NCBI GenBank assembly: GCA_023807065.1
Contig: JAJJLU010000072.1
Span: 1 to 18,184 of the forward strand
Reading direction: 5' to 3'
DNA length: 18,184 bases
Source of the DNA: Isotricha intestinalis
Taxonomy: Eukaryota > Ciliophora > Litostomatea > Vestibuliferida > Isotrichidae
This document shows, piece by piece, positions 203 through 18,184 of this stretch; the first letter of the stretch is position 1; each line of letters starts with the position of its first letter. Position numbers and translations under genes: made by a program. The notes beneath the pieces are model-generated. The model saw only the letters and a list, made by a program, of their open reading frames with translations, was not told the origin of the DNA and searched no databases.

Positions 203-1995
203 TTATAAAGGTAAAGGAGATTTAATTTTAATAAAAGGAACAGAACTTGTTTTTTTTAATGAGGATTTTTTTTTATCCTTTGATATTATTTCCGATTTTG
301 ACGAATGAAATTTATTTTTACTTCTTTCAATAATTGGAAGAGGAACTGATAGTCTTTTTGTTCTTGCTTTTTTACAAATTGAACAATTGCTATCAAATGA
401 TTCTTCTTCTTCTTCTTCTTCTTCTTCTTCTTCTTTTTTTTCTTCTTGTTTTTTTTTTTCTGATTTTTTTTCTTCTTCTTCTTTTTTTTCTATATTATTA
501 TTGATTCCTAATTTAAACTTATATGAACTATGATTTTCAATACTTCTTGAAGTAAATTGATCTTTATTTGAATAACTATCAATTCTTTTTTTTAATAATA
601 TATCTTTATTATTTTCATTCTTTTTTTCAAAATGAGGTTCCCAACTATTATCATAATCTCCTCTTGCAATTTTACTTTTTAATTTTTGATATTTTAATAT
701 TTTATAATCAAAATAAGACTTTAATAAATCTTCATATTTACTATTACCTTCATAATAATTATTTTTAAAAGGTAAATTTGGTAATTGCTCTTCATTTTTC
801 TGAATTAAATATCTAATTTTATTTAATTCTTTTTGACTAATAATATTATTAATTTCAAAAGGATTTTTCAAACAAATATTATTTATATTTTTAAACAAAG
901 CAATATAAGTAAAATTCCTGAAAAAATTTTGATTAGCAAAATATAAATTTCCCTCAACTTTTGCATATTTCATTTTAGTGTTTGAGCCAATATAATTTTT
1001 TTTAGAGCAAAATTCTCTATCATAAATTTCATCATCAAAACAATATTTAACTTTACTATAATCTAAAACTTCTTTCCAAGGAGAAGTTTCTTTTTGTTCA
1101 TAAATTAATTTCCAATTCATATCTTCAAATAAAAAATGTTCTTCTAATTCCTTAATACCTTTTTTAAATCCAATTCTTTTATAAGTATTTCTTTCTAATA
1201 AAGAATTAATGAAATTACATAATGTTTCACTATAAAGAGAATTTTCATACAATCTTATTTTTTTAAATAATATTAATTCTTTTAAATCTTTTTTATTTTT
1301 TCCAACAAAAGGCTTTTTTCTATAAATTAATTCAAAACAAACAACACCTAAACTATAAAAATCAGAATAATATTTTTGTTTTTTACCAAATAAACATTCA
1401 GGTGACATATATTCTGGAGTTCCGCTTATATCATAAATTTCATCATTATTTATTTTTGCTATTGAAAAATCAGTTAATTTTGCATAACCATTTTCATCAA
1501 AAATTATATTTTCTGGTTTTATATCTCTATGAACAATTCCATTTGAATGAATATAATCTAAAGCAAATACTAAATTTGTTAATAAAAATTTTATTTGTTT
1601 TTCTGTTATTGTATATTTATAATGATCTAAATGATATCTTAAATCTCCTCCTTTAATTAATTCTAATAAAAAATATATATAGTTAAAATCTTGGAATGAT
1701 GCTATTAAATTTACTATAAATTTGTTTTGGAGTTTGGATAAAAAGTTTCTTTCGGATAATATATTTGAAACTGAATTATATGCTAATATTTTTACTTTGG
1801 ATATTTGCTTTAATGCAAAAGGATATTTTGTCTTTTTATGATAGACTTTCCATACTCTTCCAAATCCTCCTCTTCCTATTATATATAATATTTCAAATTG
1901 GGACGTTGATACTAATTATTGACTATTATTTTTTTTTTACTTTTTTCGTTTTCAATTGATGAGATAAATGAGTTATTTAATGGATTTTGTCCCAT
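203..1995 (-). CDS. Ser/Thr protein kinase, AGC group, STK32/YANK-like
   Basis: Model: complement(join(203..1911,1941..1995)), 587 residues. Exon 1 starts MGQNPLNNSF. Removing the 29-nt intron gives a complete kinase domain at about residues 24-290. Visible are the glycine loop G31-x-G-x-x-G36, K53 in FALK, helix-C E72, HRD at 146-148, N153, D166-F-S in place of DFG, and SPE at 188-190. The stretch LIASFQD...LLELIKGGDLRYHL and the non-Gly residue after D-F match the YANK/STK32 family of AGC kinases. Those carry DFN and a myristoylated MG start; MGQ here is only a weak acceptor. The tail of roughly 300 residues is Lys/Glu-rich, with a near-pure Glu run from a GAA repeat. Without exon 1 there is no in-frame ATG before M187, which would cut off most of the kinase core, so the spliced model is needed. 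Family fairly sure; substrate unknown. Confidence 0.88.
401..434. repeat. (TTC)n trinucleotide repeat inside the kinase tail
   Basis: About eleven tandem TTC units on the plus strand encode a run of glutamates in the C-terminal tail of the minus-strand kinase. The run is prone to length variation. Because the unit is 3 nt, changes in length stay in frame. Confidence 0.9.
1912..1940 (-). other. 29-nt intron in the kinase gene
   Basis: On the minus strand this reads GTAAAA...AATTAG. It contains an in-frame stop (1916-1918), and its removal joins codons ..GAA AAA A|TA TCA.. in phase 1 to restore the frame into the glycine loop. Size and ends (GTAAAA donor, TTAG acceptor) match the introns of the micro-exon gene at 16780-17505, an independent example of this genome's intron type. 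Confidence 0.85.
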
Positions 1996-2280
1996 TATTT
2001 CAATTTTTTTAATATTTATAAAATAAATGTAATGATTAATTTTATAAATTTATATGAATAAAATAAAGTATTATATTTTGAATATTTATTAAAAAGAAAA
2101 ATGTTTTGTTTTTTATAATATTTAATTATGATATATTTATTAAATTACATTTATTTTATAATTTCAACTTTTTTCTTTTTTTTTAAATATGTAAATATAT
2201 AAATAATAAAAGATTAAATCAATTTATTAATGTTAAGAAGTAATTTAATAATAAATTGATAAAATTTTAGTTATCATATA
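1996..2280. other. AT-rich spacer upstream of the kinase
   Basis: Nearly pure A/T spacer that must contain the minus-strand promoter of the kinase. I see no open frame, RNA gene or recognisable motif in it. Confidence 0.4.
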
Positions 2281-2840
2281 GCCAATTCTACTATTAGTCA
2301 TTCAGAAATTGCAAAAAATTATTAATTATGTTATTTACAATAATTTCTTGATTTTATAGATCAGTTTTATCAATTTTATTCACATCTATTATAATATTAT
2401 TATTCTGAATCATAATAATTCGATTTTTTAATTCTTTTAATAAAAAAACATCACATCCTTAGATGAATTGATAATGTTATTAGAAATATTATTAGGAGCT
2501 TCAGAATTTTAGACTTTTAATTGTTTATGAAGATATATTTATTAAAAATTGAAATGGTGAAGAAATTTTGGTTTTTGAAAGTAAAAAAGAAATTCATTCT
2601 GATTGACTCACTTTTTGAATTTATTAATATGATTATATTATTATTTAGATTTAATGATATTTAGGAATTAATTAGATAAAATTATTTAAAGTTCTATTTG
2701 GTTTGTTTTATGTATTTTTGAATATTTTGATTCTCTAAAATTCAACAAAAAGCTGTGAAATATCTTCTTTACAAATTATTGTAGAAAAAATGAACAATAG
2801 ATAGATCTTATTTTCAATGAGTTTTTTTTATTTTATTTTT
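2281..2840 (+). pseudogene. Probable decayed protein gene, product not recognised
   Basis: No intact frame exists here, but the stretch is less AT-extreme than the true spacers and reads like protein in three successive plus-strand frames. From 2281 the frame reads IANSTISHSEIAKNY, then several stops lie between protein-like runs such as FLDFIDQFYQFYSHLL. From 2450 a shifted frame reads ITSLDELIMLLEILLGASEF. From 2523 a third frame reads YEDIFIKN and NGEEILVFESKKEIHSD. Most interruptions are TAA or TAG where a Gln codon would fit, or TGA where Trp would fit. This is what C-to-T or G-to-A decay of CAA, CAG and TGG would leave. No family recognised. AT-rich sequence gives protein-like noise, so confidence is modest. 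Confidence 0.35.
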
Positions 2841-3186
2841 CTTTGTTCTTTGATTAAAAGTCTTTAAATATTTACTTTATCTTATTTTTTGAAATTTCTT
2901 TTAATTTGAAAATAATATTTAAAAATTTCAATAATCTAATTTTCGGATTTATTTAATTTTATATTCATAAAAATATTAATATATCATCAAATTTCAAAGG
3001 AATTCGAAATGTTATAACCATATATTATAATATATGACTAATCTAATTTTTATAAAAAGAAAGATTTCAAAGTTGATCAATAAAAATGAAGATACTACTT
3101 TTATTCTTATTTGAAGTATAATAAAATATAAATATGTTTAACGATTAATACTATTTATAAATTATAATTTAATTTTTTAAATAAGA
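2841..3186. other. Spacer before the 3187 gene, perhaps the tail of the decayed gene
   Basis: AT-rich sequence with a few short plus-strand open stretches broken by TAA and TGA, for example around 2960-3035. It may continue the decayed gene to its left and must hold the promoter of the gene starting at 3187. Nothing else seen. Confidence 0.3.
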
Positions 3187-4965
3187 ATGATGAATAAACC
3201 AAATCATAAAAATTTTCCAAAAGATAACTTGAAAAAAGACAATTTTTCTTTTTCAAATGATTCTGAAATCATATCAAAAATAATTATTGAAAAAATAATT
3301 AGTTTATCAATAAATAAAATATTTACAAATATACTTTTCAATAATGAAAATTTTTCAAAATATTTAATGACGTATTTAAGAAAATCAATTGATCCTCTTC
3401 TCAGATTAAAATATATGAATTATGATAAAGATGATTTATATGAAGGAGATAAAAATTGGTGTGATATAATAGAACCTAAAAAAATAAAAAAGGATGTATA
3501 TACTTTAAATATTGTGAAAAAGGAAGAACGTTTAAATAATAGTGCAATTAATGAAATTATAGAATCAAATTTTCATTTATCAAATGATTCAAAAACTAAA
3601 ATAAATAAATCATCATCATTCAAAATGAATAATTATAATGATAACTCTGAAATAAAAAAAGAAAAAAAAAAATTAAATTTAAGTATGCCTTCTTATAAAA
3701 TCCAAGATATAATAATTAGACAAGAACCAAAAGAAATTAAAATTTTAAGAGAAAAATTTGAAATAGAATTAAAGGAGAAAAAAAAGCAATTACTTGAAAA
3801 TACAGATTCAAAAAAAAGAGTAAGTCAAAAAAATAAAATAAGGAAATACACAAATGAAAACCAAATAGATTTTAATAAATATTCATTTGATCCAAATGGA
3901 AAAATAATTAGAATTAAAGGAATAAATAATAAAAATTTAATAAAAGAATTTGGAAATGTTATACCTAAAAGTACATTTATTCAAAATATAAAACAAAAAG
4001 AAGATGATTTTTATTCATATTATATTAATCATAAAGATGAAATAAAAGTAGAAACAGTTTCTGCGAAAATTGATTCAAATTCAAATAACAAATTAAAAAA
4101 AGAAATTAAATTATTCAAAAATTATATTAAAACAAAATTTATACCAGTAAAACAAATACAAGGTCCACTTAAAGCAATTTGTCCTCCAGCAGGAGATAAT
4201 TTTAATATATTTCAACCTGAAATTGGAGTAAATATTAAAAATAATGATAAAAGAGAAAAAATTGGAAGTAAACAATATTCTAAATTATTTAAAAGATATT
4301 CTCTTGGAGAATTTTATGATATATATGATGAAACTTCTAATATTAATAAAAATAAAATTAAATATCATGAAGAAAATATAAAAAATGATATTAAAGATCT
4401 TTCTTTAAATTTATCTTCTATATCTAAAAGTTCATATAAGAAAAGTAATTCACTTATTGGTGGAAAAAGTACTTTAAATTCAATTGAAAAAGGAACAAAG
4501 AATTCTTCTTCAGGATATATAAATATTAATCAAAATGTTTTAAAAGATAATTCTATATTATTTGATACAATTGATTCTCTTGATTTGGTTCCTGAAGTTG
4601 ACAATAAATTATCATATTTAAAAAAAGAAAAAAATATTTTTAAACAAAGAATATCTAACTTAAATATGAAAAATTATTATCAAAGAAAAAATTCTTTTAA
4701 TAATTCAAGAAATACTAAAATATTTAGTAGAAATAGTTCAATGGATTTAATAGATAGATTTAATAAAAGTTTAGTACAAGATAAAGGACAAGTATTTGAA
4801 AAGAAATATAAAAAATATATTGGAGAAATGGATTCAAATTCATTTTTTTTACCAGGAATAAAACAACCAAAAATTCCAAATTATTATCAAATAAAAAAAA
4901 AACAAAATGGAGTTTTGAATAAAAGCCTAATTCCTTTGAGAGTAAAATCTAAAAAGATAAAATAA
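3187..4965 (+). CDS. Uncharacterised Lys/Asn/Ser-rich protein, 592 residues
   Basis: I do not recognise this protein. It starts with two adjacent ATG codons, so the true start may be residue 2. Residues about 25-75 are helical and hydrophobic-patterned (SEIISKIIIEKIISL...). They are followed by a conserved-looking motif W91-C-D-I-I-E-P97 with nearby KKD. A charged helix rich in Lys and Glu lies near residues 180-208. Around 233-246 sits FDPNGKIIRIKGI, which looks like a short ordered motif. The rest is polar low-complexity sequence with many Ser, Asn and Lys, likely disordered. There is no signal peptide or membrane segment. It is most likely an intracellular structural or scaffold protein, but function is unknown. 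It converges with the minus-strand membrane protein, leaving a 79-nt shared 3' spacer. Confidence 0.8.
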   Translation: MMNKPNHKNFPKDNLKKDNFSFSNDSEIISKIIIEKIISLSINKIFTNILFNNENFSKYLMTYLRKSIDPLLRLKYMNYDKDDLYEGDKNWCDIIEPKKIKKDVYTLNIVKKEERLNNSAINEIIESNFHLSNDSKTKINKSSSFKMNNYNDNSEIKKEKKKLNLSMPSYKIQDIIIRQEPKEIKILREKFEIELKEKKKQLLENTDSKKRVSQKNKIRKYTNENQIDFNKYSFDPNGKIIRIKGINNKNLIKEFGNVIPKSTFIQNIKQKEDDFYSYYINHKDEIKVETVSAKIDSNSNNKLKKEIKLFKNYIKTKFIPVKQIQGPLKAICPPAGDNFNIFQPEIGVNIKNNDKREKIGSKQYSKLFKRYSLGEFYDIYDETSNINKNKIKYHEENIKNDIKDLSLNLSSISKSSYKKSNSLIGGKSTLNSIEKGTKNSSSGYININQNVLKDNSILFDTIDSLDLVPEVDNKLSYLKKEKNIFKQRISNLNMKNYYQRKNSFNNSRNTKIFSRNSSMDLIDRFNKSLVQDKGQVFEKKYKKYIGEMDSNSFFLPGIKQPKIPNYYQIKKKQNGVLNKSLIPLRVKSKKIK

Positions 4966-6099: not shown

Positions 6100-7644
6100 A
6101 TGGGTGACAGAGAAAAAGATAGAAGAATAATGAACTTACAAACAGAACTTCAAAATTATATGGATAAAAATAAAAATTTAAATCAAAATAATGAAAAACT
6201 GATACAAGAAATTGAAACATTAAAAAAAGAAAACATTGAATTAAAATCAAAAACCCAAGGAAACTTGAATAAAGAGTTAAATCAAAGAATAATGAGATTA
6301 CAAAATCAAATACAAGAAATGTTACGTAAAAAAGAAGAGACAGAATCAGAACTTGAGAATTTAAAAAAAATTGCTCAAACAAAAGAAAAAGATAAGAGAA
6401 TAATGAATTTACAAAATGAATTAATGGAATCTAAGAATAAAATTCAAAAAGAAAAAGAAGAAAAAAATAATTTAGAAATTGAAATAAATAATTTAATACA
6501 AAAACTTGAGAATGTTAATAAAAAACCTACTATAAAAATTCCTAATCAAAATTGTATTATTGCAGAATATAAAATTTTAAAAGAAGATTTAAACAAAAAA
6601 GAAATCCAAATATTAAATTATAACCAATTTGATAAATCAACAAATAAGAAGGAAATAGAAGATAATTGTGAAATATATATAAATGATCAGAAAAAACCTT
6701 TTTCATTTACATATAAATTTGAAAAAGAAGGAATCCACAAAATAAAATTTGTATTTAAAAAAAAAATAATAAATGCAAGTTTAATGTTTTATTATTGCGT
6801 AAATTTATTTTCTGTTGATTTATCAGATTTTGATGCAAGTGAAGTAATAGATATGATGGGAATGTTTAATAATTGTTCATCATTAACTTCAATTAATTTT
6901 AATGGTATAAATACAAATAAATTAAAAGATATGACAGCAATGTTTGAATCATGTTCTTCATTAAAAAAAATAGATTTTTCAACATTTTCAACAAAGAATG
7001 TAAGAGGAATGAGTGGTTTATTTTCAAGTTGTTTAAAATTAACAGATTTAAATTTATCTAATTTTGATACTCAAAATGTTACTGATATGACTTCAATGTT
7101 TAATCAATGTGAATCTTTAAAACAAATAAATATTTCTAATTTTAATACTAAAAATGTTAGAGAAATGACTGCAATGTTTCAATTATGTACTTCTTTAACA
7201 AATTTAAATTTATATAATTTTAATACTGAAAAAGTTGAAAATATGAATAATATGTTTTCTCAATGTTCTAAATTACAAGTATTAGATTTATCTGATTTTA
7301 AAACTCCAAATCTTATTAATATTGATGAGATGTTTCAATTATGTTCTAATTTAAAATATATTGATTTATCTAATTTTATTACAAATAATGTTACAACTAT
7401 GGAAGGTACTTTTAAAGGATGTTCTTCTTTGATTATTTTAGACTTATCAAATTTTGAAACTGGAAAAGTTAAAAATATGAAGCAGACTTTTTATGCATGT
7501 TCTTCATTGAATCTTTTAAATTTAAAAGGTTTCAATACTTCTTATGTTGAAATTTTAGATGAGGAAACTTTTGGAAAAATCCAAAATAGTTGCAATGTCC
7601 AAACCAATGATTTTAGAATAAATAGTATTTTGCATTTATATTAA
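6100..7644 (+). CDS. Coiled-coil protein with DUF285/BspA-type leucine-rich repeats
   Basis: A 514-residue protein in two parts. Residues 1-142 form a charged coiled coil with the heptad-like core RIM(N/R)LQ repeated three times (about 9-14, 63-68 and 100-105). Residues 143-228 look like a beta-rich linker (CEIYINDQ...FTYKFEKEGIHKIKFVF). From M229 there are ten tandem 26-residue repeats of the pattern MFxxCSSLxxLDLSNFxTxxVxxM, the signature of DUF285 leucine-rich repeats. An incomplete eleventh ends at residue 514. This family is known from bacterial surface proteins and is expanded in Entamoeba, Trichomonas and ciliates. No signal peptide or membrane anchor is visible, so this copy is probably intracellular and used for protein binding, with the coiled coil giving oligomers. 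The partner is unknown. Confidence 0.88.
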   Translation: MGDREKDRRIMNLQTELQNYMDKNKNLNQNNEKLIQEIETLKKENIELKSKTQGNLNKELNQRIMRLQNQIQEMLRKKEETESELENLKKIAQTKEKDKRIMNLQNELMESKNKIQKEKEEKNNLEIEINNLIQKLENVNKKPTIKIPNQNCIIAEYKILKEDLNKKEIQILNYNQFDKSTNKKEIEDNCEIYINDQKKPFSFTYKFEKEGIHKIKFVFKKKIINASLMFYYCVNLFSVDLSDFDASEVIDMMGMFNNCSSLTSINFNGINTNKLKDMTAMFESCSSLKKIDFSTFSTKNVRGMSGLFSSCLKLTDLNLSNFDTQNVTDMTSMFNQCESLKQINISNFNTKNVREMTAMFQLCTSLTNLNLYNFNTEKVENMNNMFSQCSKLQVLDLSDFKTPNLINIDEMFQLCSNLKYIDLSNFITNNVTTMEGTFKGCSSLIILDLSNFETGKVKNMKQTFYACSSLNLLNLKGFNTSYVEILDEETFGKIQNSCNVQTNDFRINSILHLY

Positions 7645-15880: not shown

Positions 15881-17797
15881 ATGTTTTCTGAAACAATAAA
15901 CCCTTTAACTGATGAACATATTTTAAAATATCCAGATTGTCCTTTTCTTCCAAAATTAGGTTTATCTCATTCAAAAGAAGGAATAGATTATATTCAATAC
16001 ACATGTTATAATAACCATCATATCCAACCAAATTTAAGTTTAAAAGATACATTAATAGAATCAAATTCAAACAGAATAACATTATCAAAATGTAAATATT
16101 GTAGAAAGGAAAAAAGATTAGAATATAATTTAGAATTTTATTATTGTTGTGAATGTGATTATTTTATATGTGAAAATTGTATGCCTTTACATTCTGATAA
16201 ATTTAATAATAATCATACTCTTGTAGCTCTTCAAAAATATATATTATTATGTAATGAACATAATCAATATCTTGATTTTTTTTGTCCTAATTGTAATAAA
16301 ACTTTATGTACAATTTGTGTTAATGAGCATCCTATAGAACATAAAATTTATAATCTTGAAACTTTTAAATTAAATGAAAAAGAAATGGAAAAATTAAAAG
16401 ATAAAATTAAAATTAGTGCAGAATTTATTAAAAAAGTTGAAGAATATTGTAGAAATACAATAAAAGAAATAGAAGATTTAATTATGATTCCTTTTCAAAA
16501 ATTTAAAGAAATGAATTTACTTGAATTAAAATTTTTAATTCAATTACTTGAAAATTATCAAAAAAAAGATAGAGAAAAAGATTTGAATTTTCAAGTTATT
16601 CAAAATTTACGTTCTTTTATGAAATTTAATGATTTAACTGAATTCAGGAAAACTATTGATAATATTTCACATCCAATTAAGAAATTTAATTTCCTATTTA
16701 AATATTTAAATTCAAATAATTGGTTAATGCCTGATACTAGTTTTGAAAAGAAAAAAAGAGAAATTGTGGAAATTCAATTGTATTTATTATAATAATATAT
16801 TATATAGTCAGTATATTTATTATTTTTATTTTTTAGTAAGTAAGAAATATTTAATATATATATTTTTTAGTTTGTAAAAAATATATTTTTATTTAAGAAA
16901 GTAAAAAAATATAGGATTATTTTTAGTTTGTAAATAATAATTTTGAATTTATTAAAAAGATAGTAAATTTGTATTCCTTATCATAGTCGGTGAATTTTTT
17001 TATAATTTTAGATTGTATTTTTCTTATTTATTCAATAGGATGTAATATTATTAAATATATAAAATAAGACAGTATTTTATATAAATAATATAATATAGTT
17101 CATTGTATTTTAAAAATTAATAAGATTAGAGGAGAGGAGTATTAAATTTTAATAAAATAGCGAGTATAAATTATTTTGATATAAATTAAGAGGGTAAGAA
17201 ATATATTTAAATCATTAGAAAGTAAAATTTTACTGAATAAATAAATAGTTATAAGTAAAAAATTATAAATTATTCTAAATAGTCAGTAAATTATAATTTA
17301 ATGATTTATTAGTGTTTCGTAAGATATAATATTATTAATTAGATTAAAGTAATTTAATTATTAACTTTCAGTGAGTAAAAATTAATTTATACTTTAGAAA
17401 GTTATTTATTTAAATAATTCTAGAATGTATATATATTTTATAAAATATAGTGAGTTCATAATTTTATTTTACTTAGACCGTATATTAATTTTATTTAATT
17501 TAAAGTAATGAAATATATATTAAGAATCATAAAGTTGTACCAAGAGGAAGAGGAATTAAAATAAACTATTATGAAGGAAAAATGTTACATTTTAATATAT
17601 ATGGAAATGAAAATATATCTCAAGATACTTTATTTAAATTAAAATTATATGAATATTTGGGACCGGCAAAAATCATTTTTGAAAAAAATGATATATTAGA
17701 GAAACATATGAATAAAATAAAAGAAAAATTTAAAGACAGTTATTATGTATTATTAGAAGATTTTTTTAATGAATTTATTGACTTTTTAAATAATTAA
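15881..17797 (+). CDS. B-box zinc-finger protein encoded by 26 exons, 24 of them micro-exons
   Basis: Model: exon 1 15881..16779, 24 micro-exons, last exon 17506..17797; 1281 coding nt, 426 residues. Exon 1 gives a Cys/His cluster (C71, C74, C89/C90, C92, C97, C100, H104, H112). A B-box2 pattern follows (C124, H127, C135, C138, C143, C146, H150, H154), then a helical coiled-coil-like region at 160-240, as in TRIM-type proteins without a RING. Residues 300-330 come entirely from micro-exons (FHNLNLYRLI...LNEKIEP). The last exon continues NEIYIKNHKVVPRGRG and ends FFNEFIDFLNN. The C-terminal domain is not recognised. If intron 1 is kept, translation stops at 16790-16792 after residue 303. The intact last-exon frame upstream of its first ATG (17582) shows it is not a separate gene. 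Function unknown; Zn-dependent protein binding likely. Confidence 0.82.
16780..17505 (+). other. Array of 25 tiny introns split by 3-, 6- and 9-nt micro-exons
   Basis: Introns: 16780-16807, 16811-16836, 16840-16870, 16874-16897, 16901-16926, 16930-16959, 16963-16986, 16990-17011, 17015-17038, 17042-17068, 17072-17098, 17105-17129, 17139-17160, 17164-17190, 17194-17218, 17222-17248, 17255-17282, 17286-17312, 17319-17342, 17349-17371, 17375-17397, 17401-17423, 17427-17450, 17454-17476, 17480-17505. Lengths are 22-31 nt, 636 nt in total. All start GT (22 of 25 GTA) and end AG (mostly TAG). The exons between are TCA, TAA, TTT, AAA, TTT, ATA, TCG, ATT, GAT, ACA, TTCATT, AGGAGAGGA, CGA, AGG, AAA, TTATAA, TCA, TGTTTC, ATTAAA, TGA, AAA, AAT, TGA, ACC. 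All introns are phase 2, and the joined 90 nt are open. Introns show no obvious sequence identity beyond their ends and AT content. Confidence 0.82.
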
Positions 17798-18154: not shown

Positions 18155-18184
18155 ATTGGGGATTGGGGATTGGGGATTGGGGAT
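18155..18184. repeat. Right telomere, ATTGGGG repeats
   Basis: Four tandem copies of the 7-nt unit ATTGGGG plus a partial copy run to the end of the window. This is the G-rich strand, as expected at a right chromosome end, and it is the exact complement of the left-end unit. Together they show that the window is a whole linear molecule. Confidence 0.95.

Follow-up and report, generated by a model that had tools for sequence, protein, structure and literature searches.

In the genome studied here, which is likely that of a gut ciliate, parts of at least 20 genes appear to be cut into mostly 3-nt pieces by back-to-back intron-like units of about 26 nt, and from the sequence these pieces are predicted to be joined codon by codon. 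One of these genes encodes a B-box protein on contig C72, an 18,184-bp stretch that was analysed as an entire contig and is called the window below (C-numbers denote contigs of the assembly). We hold with high confidence that 25 units in this gene would be spliced out and that the 24 micro-exons between them would supply about 31 residues, between the B-box and the C-terminal exons, to a single protein of 426 residues. The split genes with single-codon exons very probably form a class that is real and far beyond chance.

The assembly holding C72 comprises 57.3 Mb in 2,153 contigs. C72 is closed by a telomere repeat that starts 0.36 kb past the stop codon of the gene, and many of the listed contigs carry the repeat at both ends. 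Its complement, CCCCAAT, is the telomere reported for Entodinium caudatum, Muniziella cunhai and Balantidium ctenopharyngodoni in the excerpts available of those accounts, and the assembly thus has the telomere that we took as the mark of trichostome litostome ciliates. The ORFs of the window read with the standard genetic code, as is also stated for Muniziella in the available excerpt. Given the telomeres and the standard code, the most likely source of the assembly is a trichostome litostome ciliate, represented by its somatic genome.

Exon 1 of the C72 gene is identified as B-box-encoding by a match to PF00643 at 28.3 bits (cut-off 24.1; E 2e-6), and the array follows it directly (Table 1). 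The earlier note had described AG-NNN-GT junctions recurring along this array, with 25 mini-introns and spacers of 3 nt (19 cases), 6 nt (four) and 9 nt (one). A recount gave the same figures. In 1,000 dinucleotide shuffles of 16780-17505 for each spacing from 0 to 9, AG-N3-GT averaged 2.41 and never exceeded 7, against 19 observed. None of the other spacings rose above its own shuffles, the next being N6 (4 observed, mean 2.46). The same note had found the spliced reading to be free of stops, to keep phase 2 and to enter the last exon in frame; indeed, full splicing gives 426 residues ending at TAA, and retention of the array would meet a stop at 16790-16792, inside intron 1. The 90 nt of micro-exons hold no stop in frame (0/29) versus four in each of the other two frames (4/30 and 4/29). 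The micro-exons are also richer in G+C than the introns, as had been claimed (24.4% versus 4.9%, GT and AG excluded from the introns). What had been called two dozen consecutive 3-nt exons is correct for the number of micro-exons, 24, but not for an exact length of 3 nt throughout, the longest uninterrupted stretch of 3-nt spacers being 10. A frame-blind decoder, which scores splice signals, composition and intron length with no term for frame and was trained on introns beside 3-nt spacers, found exactly these 25 introns; elsewhere in the window its runs did not exceed three introns.

Table 1. Features of contig C72, with the C231 array gene for comparison. The limits of exon 1 and of introns 1 to 25 are those of the splice reading; the last column of each intron row gives the micro-exon that follows it.
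Feature	Position	Strand	Length or description	Followed by
Exon 1, B-box protein	15881-16779	+	299 codons + 2 nt; ends CAA TT|, phase 2	
B-box zinc finger, residues 123-156	16247-16348	+	PF00643 profile match	
Micro-exon array	16780-17505	+	25 predicted introns, GT..AG, 22-31 nt; 24 micro-exons (19 x 3, 4 x 6, 1 x 9 nt; 90 nt in total), phase 2	
Intron 1	16780-16807	+	28 nt	TCA 16808-16810
Intron 2	16811-16836	+	26 nt	TAA 16837-16839
Intron 3	16840-16870	+	31 nt	TTT 16871-16873
Intron 4	16874-16897	+	24 nt	AAA 16898-16900
Intron 5	16901-16926	+	26 nt	TTT 16927-16929
Intron 6	16930-16959	+	30 nt	ATA 16960-16962
Intron 7	16963-16986	+	24 nt	TCG 16987-16989
Intron 8	16990-17011	+	22 nt	ATT 17012-17014
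Intron 9	17015-17038	+	24 nt	GAT 17039-17041
Intron 10	17042-17068	+	27 nt	ACA 17069-17071
Intron 11	17072-17098	+	27 nt	TTCATT 17099-17104
Intron 12	17105-17129	+	25 nt	AGGAGAGGA 17130-17138
Intron 13	17139-17160	+	22 nt	CGA 17161-17163
Intron 14	17164-17190	+	27 nt	AGG 17191-17193
Intron 15	17194-17218	+	25 nt	AAA 17219-17221
Intron 16	17222-17248	+	27 nt	TTATAA 17249-17254
Intron 17	17255-17282	+	28 nt	TCA 17283-17285
Intron 18	17286-17312	+	27 nt	TGTTTC 17313-17318
Intron 19	17319-17342	+	24 nt	ATTAAA 17343-17348
Intron 20	17349-17371	+	23 nt	TGA 17372-17374
Intron 21	17375-17397	+	23 nt	AAA 17398-17400
Intron 22	17401-17423	+	23 nt	AAT 17424-17426
Intron 23	17427-17450	+	24 nt	TGA 17451-17453
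Intron 24	17454-17476	+	23 nt	ACC 17477-17479
Intron 25	17480-17505	+	26 nt; last of array	
Last exon, to stop TAA (17795-17797)	17506-17797	+	homologous to last exons of C545, C1561 and C570	
Telomere repeat (ATTGGGG)n	18155-18184	+	closes contig C72	
C231 array gene (L072)	659-3372		95 predicted introns by length-restricted decoding; 16 without GT, 5 without AG	

The 57-Mb genome contains 841 instances (463 + 378) of three AG-NNN-GTA junctions in succession, compared with 10 in the reversed control. The same triple signature with 4-nt spacers is absent (its own reversed control gives 3), and when the spacer is specified as TGG or as TGT, 41 and 62 places, respectively, are found, with no control matches. 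At least 53 of the 2,153 contigs were positive for the signature in one or more scans, and C545 and C570 were added by reading. The signature on C88 may be chance, since it is one match only, from the scan whose control yields 10. The shuffles, the reversed patterns and the 4-nt spacers together rule out a chance origin of the arrays.

We read 21 array regions on 20 contigs. When exons of up to 24 nt inside runs of at least five introns are counted over these regions, 704 of the 762 micro-exons returned by the frame-blind decoder are exactly 3 nt long (414/450 + 133/139 + 157/173); an intron that the decoder misses breaks the run, and the longer stretches that result fall outside the 762. It gives more than one run for each of the arrays of C231, C545, C570, C148, C1618, C1452, C1042 and C924, six in the case of C231, and decodes C174 and the first C570 array irregularly. 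On 80 viral control loci (857 kb, from both strands of the first 6 kb per locus), the same decoder gave two 4-intron runs and no 5-intron run. The pattern scan of viral contigs yielded at least 120 stretches; of 80 that are listed, 79 contain a single match each and the other contains two. Over 28 B-box paralog loci, the decoder found arrays in two, the nearest paralogs C1561 and C570, and arrays also adjoin other B-box matches, on C18, C1008, C1236, C1452 and C1618. The longest run of 3-nt exons is 38 with the frame-blind decoder (second array of C2) and 92 with a decoder restricted to exon lengths of 1, 3, 6 ... 15 nt (C231). Introns in the 15 frame-decoded arrays average 25.6 nt and range from 19 to 37 nt.

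A scan of 142 kb, covering both strands of the window and loci L011-L038 and L071, found no isolated intron flanked by 180 nt of open sequence on each side, and 2, 4 and 10 candidates when the requirement was 150, 120 and 90 nt; the scan is biased to intron-poor genes because its 28 paralog loci were found via long ORFs. The near-absence of isolated introns makes introns appear confined to arrays and suggests, for this biased sample of DNA, that they persist mainly there.

That the micro-exons are coding was central to the earlier note, and this reading is supported by several kinds of evidence: frame, codon-position composition, conservation among sister genes, the last exons of paralogs and an exon border in a related protein. 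Fifteen arrays can be anchored in frame. Read in the frame of the upstream exon, they contain no stop in 648 codons, compared with 105/654 and 33/639 in the other frames; the segmentation used lengths and was blind to codons, with array ends set by hand and two micro-exons corrected. A wrong frame is also stop-free in 3 of the 15 (C1618, C2A and C1236). G+C at the three codon positions is 0.39/0.34/0.13 for array codons, a pattern like that of seven long ORFs of the window (0.28/0.21/0.09), and 0.06 for intron bodies. The right frame has the highest codon-usage score in 14 of the 15 arrays, the exception being C545, where another frame does slightly better; the score of C94 is negative in every frame, the right one included.

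Conservation is clearest in eight genes (C18, C231, C148, C1618, C1452, C1042, C924 and C1008), whose arrays decode to W(E/G)(L/I)(R/K)-C-x2-C-x6-G-x3-P. The continuation I-C-x5-C-P-x-(C) is found in six of the seven genes for which the second part is available, C1452 deviating. Over the first 15 single-codon exons of the eight genes, amino-acid identity is 0.486 in register versus 0.057 out of register, a value reached by none of 5,000 permutations (maximum 0.152). The introns of the same genes have identities of 0.543 in register and 0.514 out, a small but real excess (0 of 1,000 permutations reach it). Thus, the codons are kept while the introns drift. From its CxxC pairs, the module encoded by these sister arrays probably binds zinc; against Pfam it has no match above cut-off, the TFIIS ribbon scoring 14.6 bits (cut-off 21) and DZR 14.7 (cut-off 27.3). 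The assembly yielded no uninterrupted C18 module in a search that had no positive control, and a regular expression for the module matched nothing in the six frames of loci L011-L080.

At 17 places, the same exon-1 end is followed by an intron, a predicted 1-nt exon (A or G), a further intron and a Cys codon; the control has no such place. The single nucleotide would complete a codon for Arg or Lys, always at the same position within the module, for example at C18:3506-3565 (minus strand), C148:21191-21254 and C1618:2860-2920. Two of the 17 places, on C748 and C870, are identical in letters. The part before the array is related between two further array genes, those of C94 and of the second C2 array (E 3e-41, with 36% identity across 287 positions); the C2 gene has a trypsin-like match (PF13365) and C94 has no Pfam match. 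The C-terminal piece of the first C2 array has two motifs in common with both genes, QFxExKxxCFxC leading into the array and CxKCxYxF leading out of it.

For C72 itself, arrays precede homologous last exons in C72, C545, C1561 and C570. The last exon of C72 is 39% identical to that of C545 (E 5e-12) and matches those of C1561 (E 2e-5) and C570 (E 4e-6), which in turn match each other at E 5e-27. In C72, C545 and C1561 the last exon follows the array in frame, and the motif (I/V)EI(Q/E/K)F stands before the array in C72, C1561 and C570. C545 additionally carries a protein kinase domain. The array peptides of C72, C545 and C1561 have no pairwise similarity by BLASTP. A homologue of residues 300-330, which the note had proposed to look for, was thus not found for C72 among the array peptides of C545 and C1561; in the sister arrays such conservation does exist. 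Since the C72 array residues match no paralog, the case for coding in C72 is built on frame, composition, conserved position and membership of the class.

The public prediction for the C72 gene, P0001, is 303 residues long. P0002, a relative 76% identical over C72 exon 1 and compared here as a predicted protein, ends at the same exon border, as expected if a P0002 intron occupies the same place. Two matches in the protein collection searched are exon-1 ORFs that stop at the donor, and no spliced or uninterrupted relative was found in that collection, nor any relative of exon 1 in prokaryote genome contigs or viral contigs. Taken together, frame, composition, sister-gene conservation, last exons and the P0002 border indicate that the micro-exons are coding; as far as sequence can tell, they are very likely joined by the ordinary spliceosome, of which U1 and U5 snRNAs were found.

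Other readings of the array were considered against the same data. The 726 nt could form one long intron, or a region skipped whole, with 16779 joined to 17506 and the micro-exons vestigial. Such a junction would keep the frame as well, all C72 micro-exons being multiples of 3, and it would suit the dissimilarity of the C72 array residues to those of the paralogs. However, vestigial codons would not remain stop-free over 648 codons in 15 arrays, nor would Cys, Gly and Pro codons be kept in register in eight genes. Moreover, 94 of the 131 predicted residues of C231 come from micro-exons, so that skipping them would leave almost no protein, and we regard this reading as very improbable. That the array is noncoding, a satellite or a 3' UTR, with the protein ending at residue 303 within intron 1, would agree with the length of P0001 and with the satellite-like, near-identical units of C275, C826, C1616 and C1705 (intron identity 0.84-0.88). 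It is contradicted by the stop-free frame, the codon composition, the conserved motif and the homologous last exons in frame past the array in C72, C545 and C1561, and its probability is, in our judgement, very low.

Ciliates remove short DNA segments, and the unit size of the arrays is near that of the shortest Paramecium IESs. The 26-nt units might accordingly be internal eliminated sequences cut from DNA, the contigs being germline or incompletely processed somatic copies. Yet the C72 telomere lies just past the stop codon and many contigs are capped by telomeres at both ends, as somatic chromosomes are; the unit boundaries are GT..AG rather than the TA repeats of IESs; and the assembly search for an uninterrupted C18 module, run without a positive control, gave no copy. 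DNA elimination is therefore highly unlikely, and it was rejected on this evidence along with the noncoding satellite and the single long intron. It is unlikely as well, though a more serious prospect, that the micro-exons are spliced with many of them optional, one array giving many protein variants through codon skipping. Skipping would never shift the frame in C72, where each of the 24 micro-exons has a length divisible by 3 and the phase is constant. Against this, some skips in phase 2 would create stops, and the conserved Cys codons of the sister arrays argue for constant inclusion there.

On the reading that we prefer, in which every micro-exon is joined, the major spliceosome would remove each array intron by intron definition, with each 22-31-nt intron recognized as a whole, since an exon of 3 nt leaves too little length for definition across the exon. 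Our preferred guess is that introns would be removed serially from the 5' side, so that a long upstream exon would always be presented. GT donors and AG acceptors bound all 25 introns of C72; in the 15 arrays, 583 of 648 introns have GT and 623 of 648 have AG. The 65 decoded introns without GT and the 25 without AG are probably in part decoding errors. The array donor is GTAAA/GTAAGA, and the non-GT donors are mostly ATAAGA, TTAAGA and GAAAGA inside regular arrays (C18, C231, C148, C1452, C924, C1008 and others). A strict AAGA may compensate for the lost GT, or some of these donors may be errors. A search for U1 and U5 snRNAs found one of each in the genome, both above cut-off: U5 at 73.2 bits with a canonical loop and U1 at 72.6 bits with a canonical 5' end. 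The C72 array would serve as a variable linker before the C-terminal domain, and the sister-gene arrays would form a module with paired cysteines.

Arrays may change length, at least in part, through duplication of intron-plus-codon units, which would add whole codons and so keep the frame. Mean intron identity is 0.84-0.88 within C1616, C1705, C826, C275 and C570, and 0.54-0.60 within C72, C94 and C231. Introns that precede equal codons are more alike than those before other codons in C826 (0.901 versus 0.863) and C570 (0.909 versus 0.856), less alike in C1616 (0.845 versus 0.882), and about equally alike in C1705, C275 and C94; the C72 values, 0.649 versus 0.557, come from six pairs only. 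With these mixed results, duplication is visible in some arrays only. A three-unit block is repeated with its codons in C570 and a longer block in C826, which indicates that unit duplication happens. In C1616, near-identical introns (0.88) surround varied codons, a pattern that fits duplication followed by fast codon change, intron conversion, or insertion of intron copies. The codons at L079 (C1616) 1-1000 spell a very hydrophobic, Trp/Phe-rich peptide.

As a tentative proposal, which we consider possible while leaning slightly against it, the arrays might represent a new gene architecture, the codon cassette. On otherwise intron-poor chromosomes, particular genes would be interrupted at almost every codon, with unbroken runs of up to 92 single-codon exons in the decoding, intron plus codon would be the unit of mutation, residues would be gained or lost without breaking the frame, and the spliceosome would act serially on 3-nt and 1-nt exons.

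The nearest described systems resemble these genes in part. In the sections available of one report, the micro-exon genes (MEGs) of Schistosoma mansoni have exons of 3-81 or 6-81 bp, mostly 15, with 10-20 per gene and introns of 100-5000 bp, and encode secreted proteins (PMC10526429). The likeness lies in runs of tiny, frame-keeping exons, most of them multiples of 3, within one gene; in contrast, 704 of 762 exons here are 3 nt and the introns are about 26 nt. The array genes carry B-box, trypsin-like or kinase parts. Drosophila homothorax has an isolated, alternatively spliced 3-nt micro-exon, of one-codon length as here but single and in no run, according to the excerpt at hand (PMC7392893). 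Likewise, the excerpt on Arabidopsis APC11 describes a constitutive 1-nt exon, shown in vivo, in that one gene, compared with 17 predicted places here (PMC4674806). Tiny spliceosomal introns, as in our arrays, occur in the macronuclear genomes of the ciliates Stentor coeruleus (PMC9505925) and Nyctotherus ovalis (PMC2633312), and the available parts of both papers do not mention runs of 3-nt exons. Introners, as described in the excerpt available, spread by inserting copies of themselves across many genes, and target-site duplications accompany some families (PMC9860276); the feature that the arrays may share with them is the presence of many near-identical introns in one genome, as inside C1616, C1705, C826 and C275. 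Among the matches listed from the open full-text literature, with subscription papers and bioRxiv outside its scope, there was no report of runs of single-codon exons. Tiny introns, 3-nt exons and 1-nt exons are each known singly; in the literature searched, a run of them is not known, and the array genes would be more finely split than any gene described there.

In well-studied organisms, the splicing machinery has difficulty with exons of less than about 50 nt, as stated in the part of the APC11 paper available (PMC4674806). If the predicted splicing is true, dozens of consecutive exons of 3 nt, together with the conserved exon of 1 nt, would mean that intron definition alone can suffice, and the arrays would be a natural test bed for neighbouring splice sites that share a 3-nt exon. 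Part of the proteome would escape standard gene finders and read aligners, as with the 303 residues of P0001 compared with 426 predicted. Confinement of introns to arrays would also bear on intron gain and loss.

Two further observations concern the contigs. The arrays of C72, C545, C1561, C174, C275, C1616, C1083, C1974 and C2033 lie less than about 2 kb from a contig end, and the near-end position of several arrays could reflect either a subtelomeric preference or assembly breakage. Elsewhere in the window, an ORF at positions 6100-7644 contains a tandemly repeated unit of about 78 nt, or 26 residues, and presumably resembles a BspA-type leucine-rich repeat protein.
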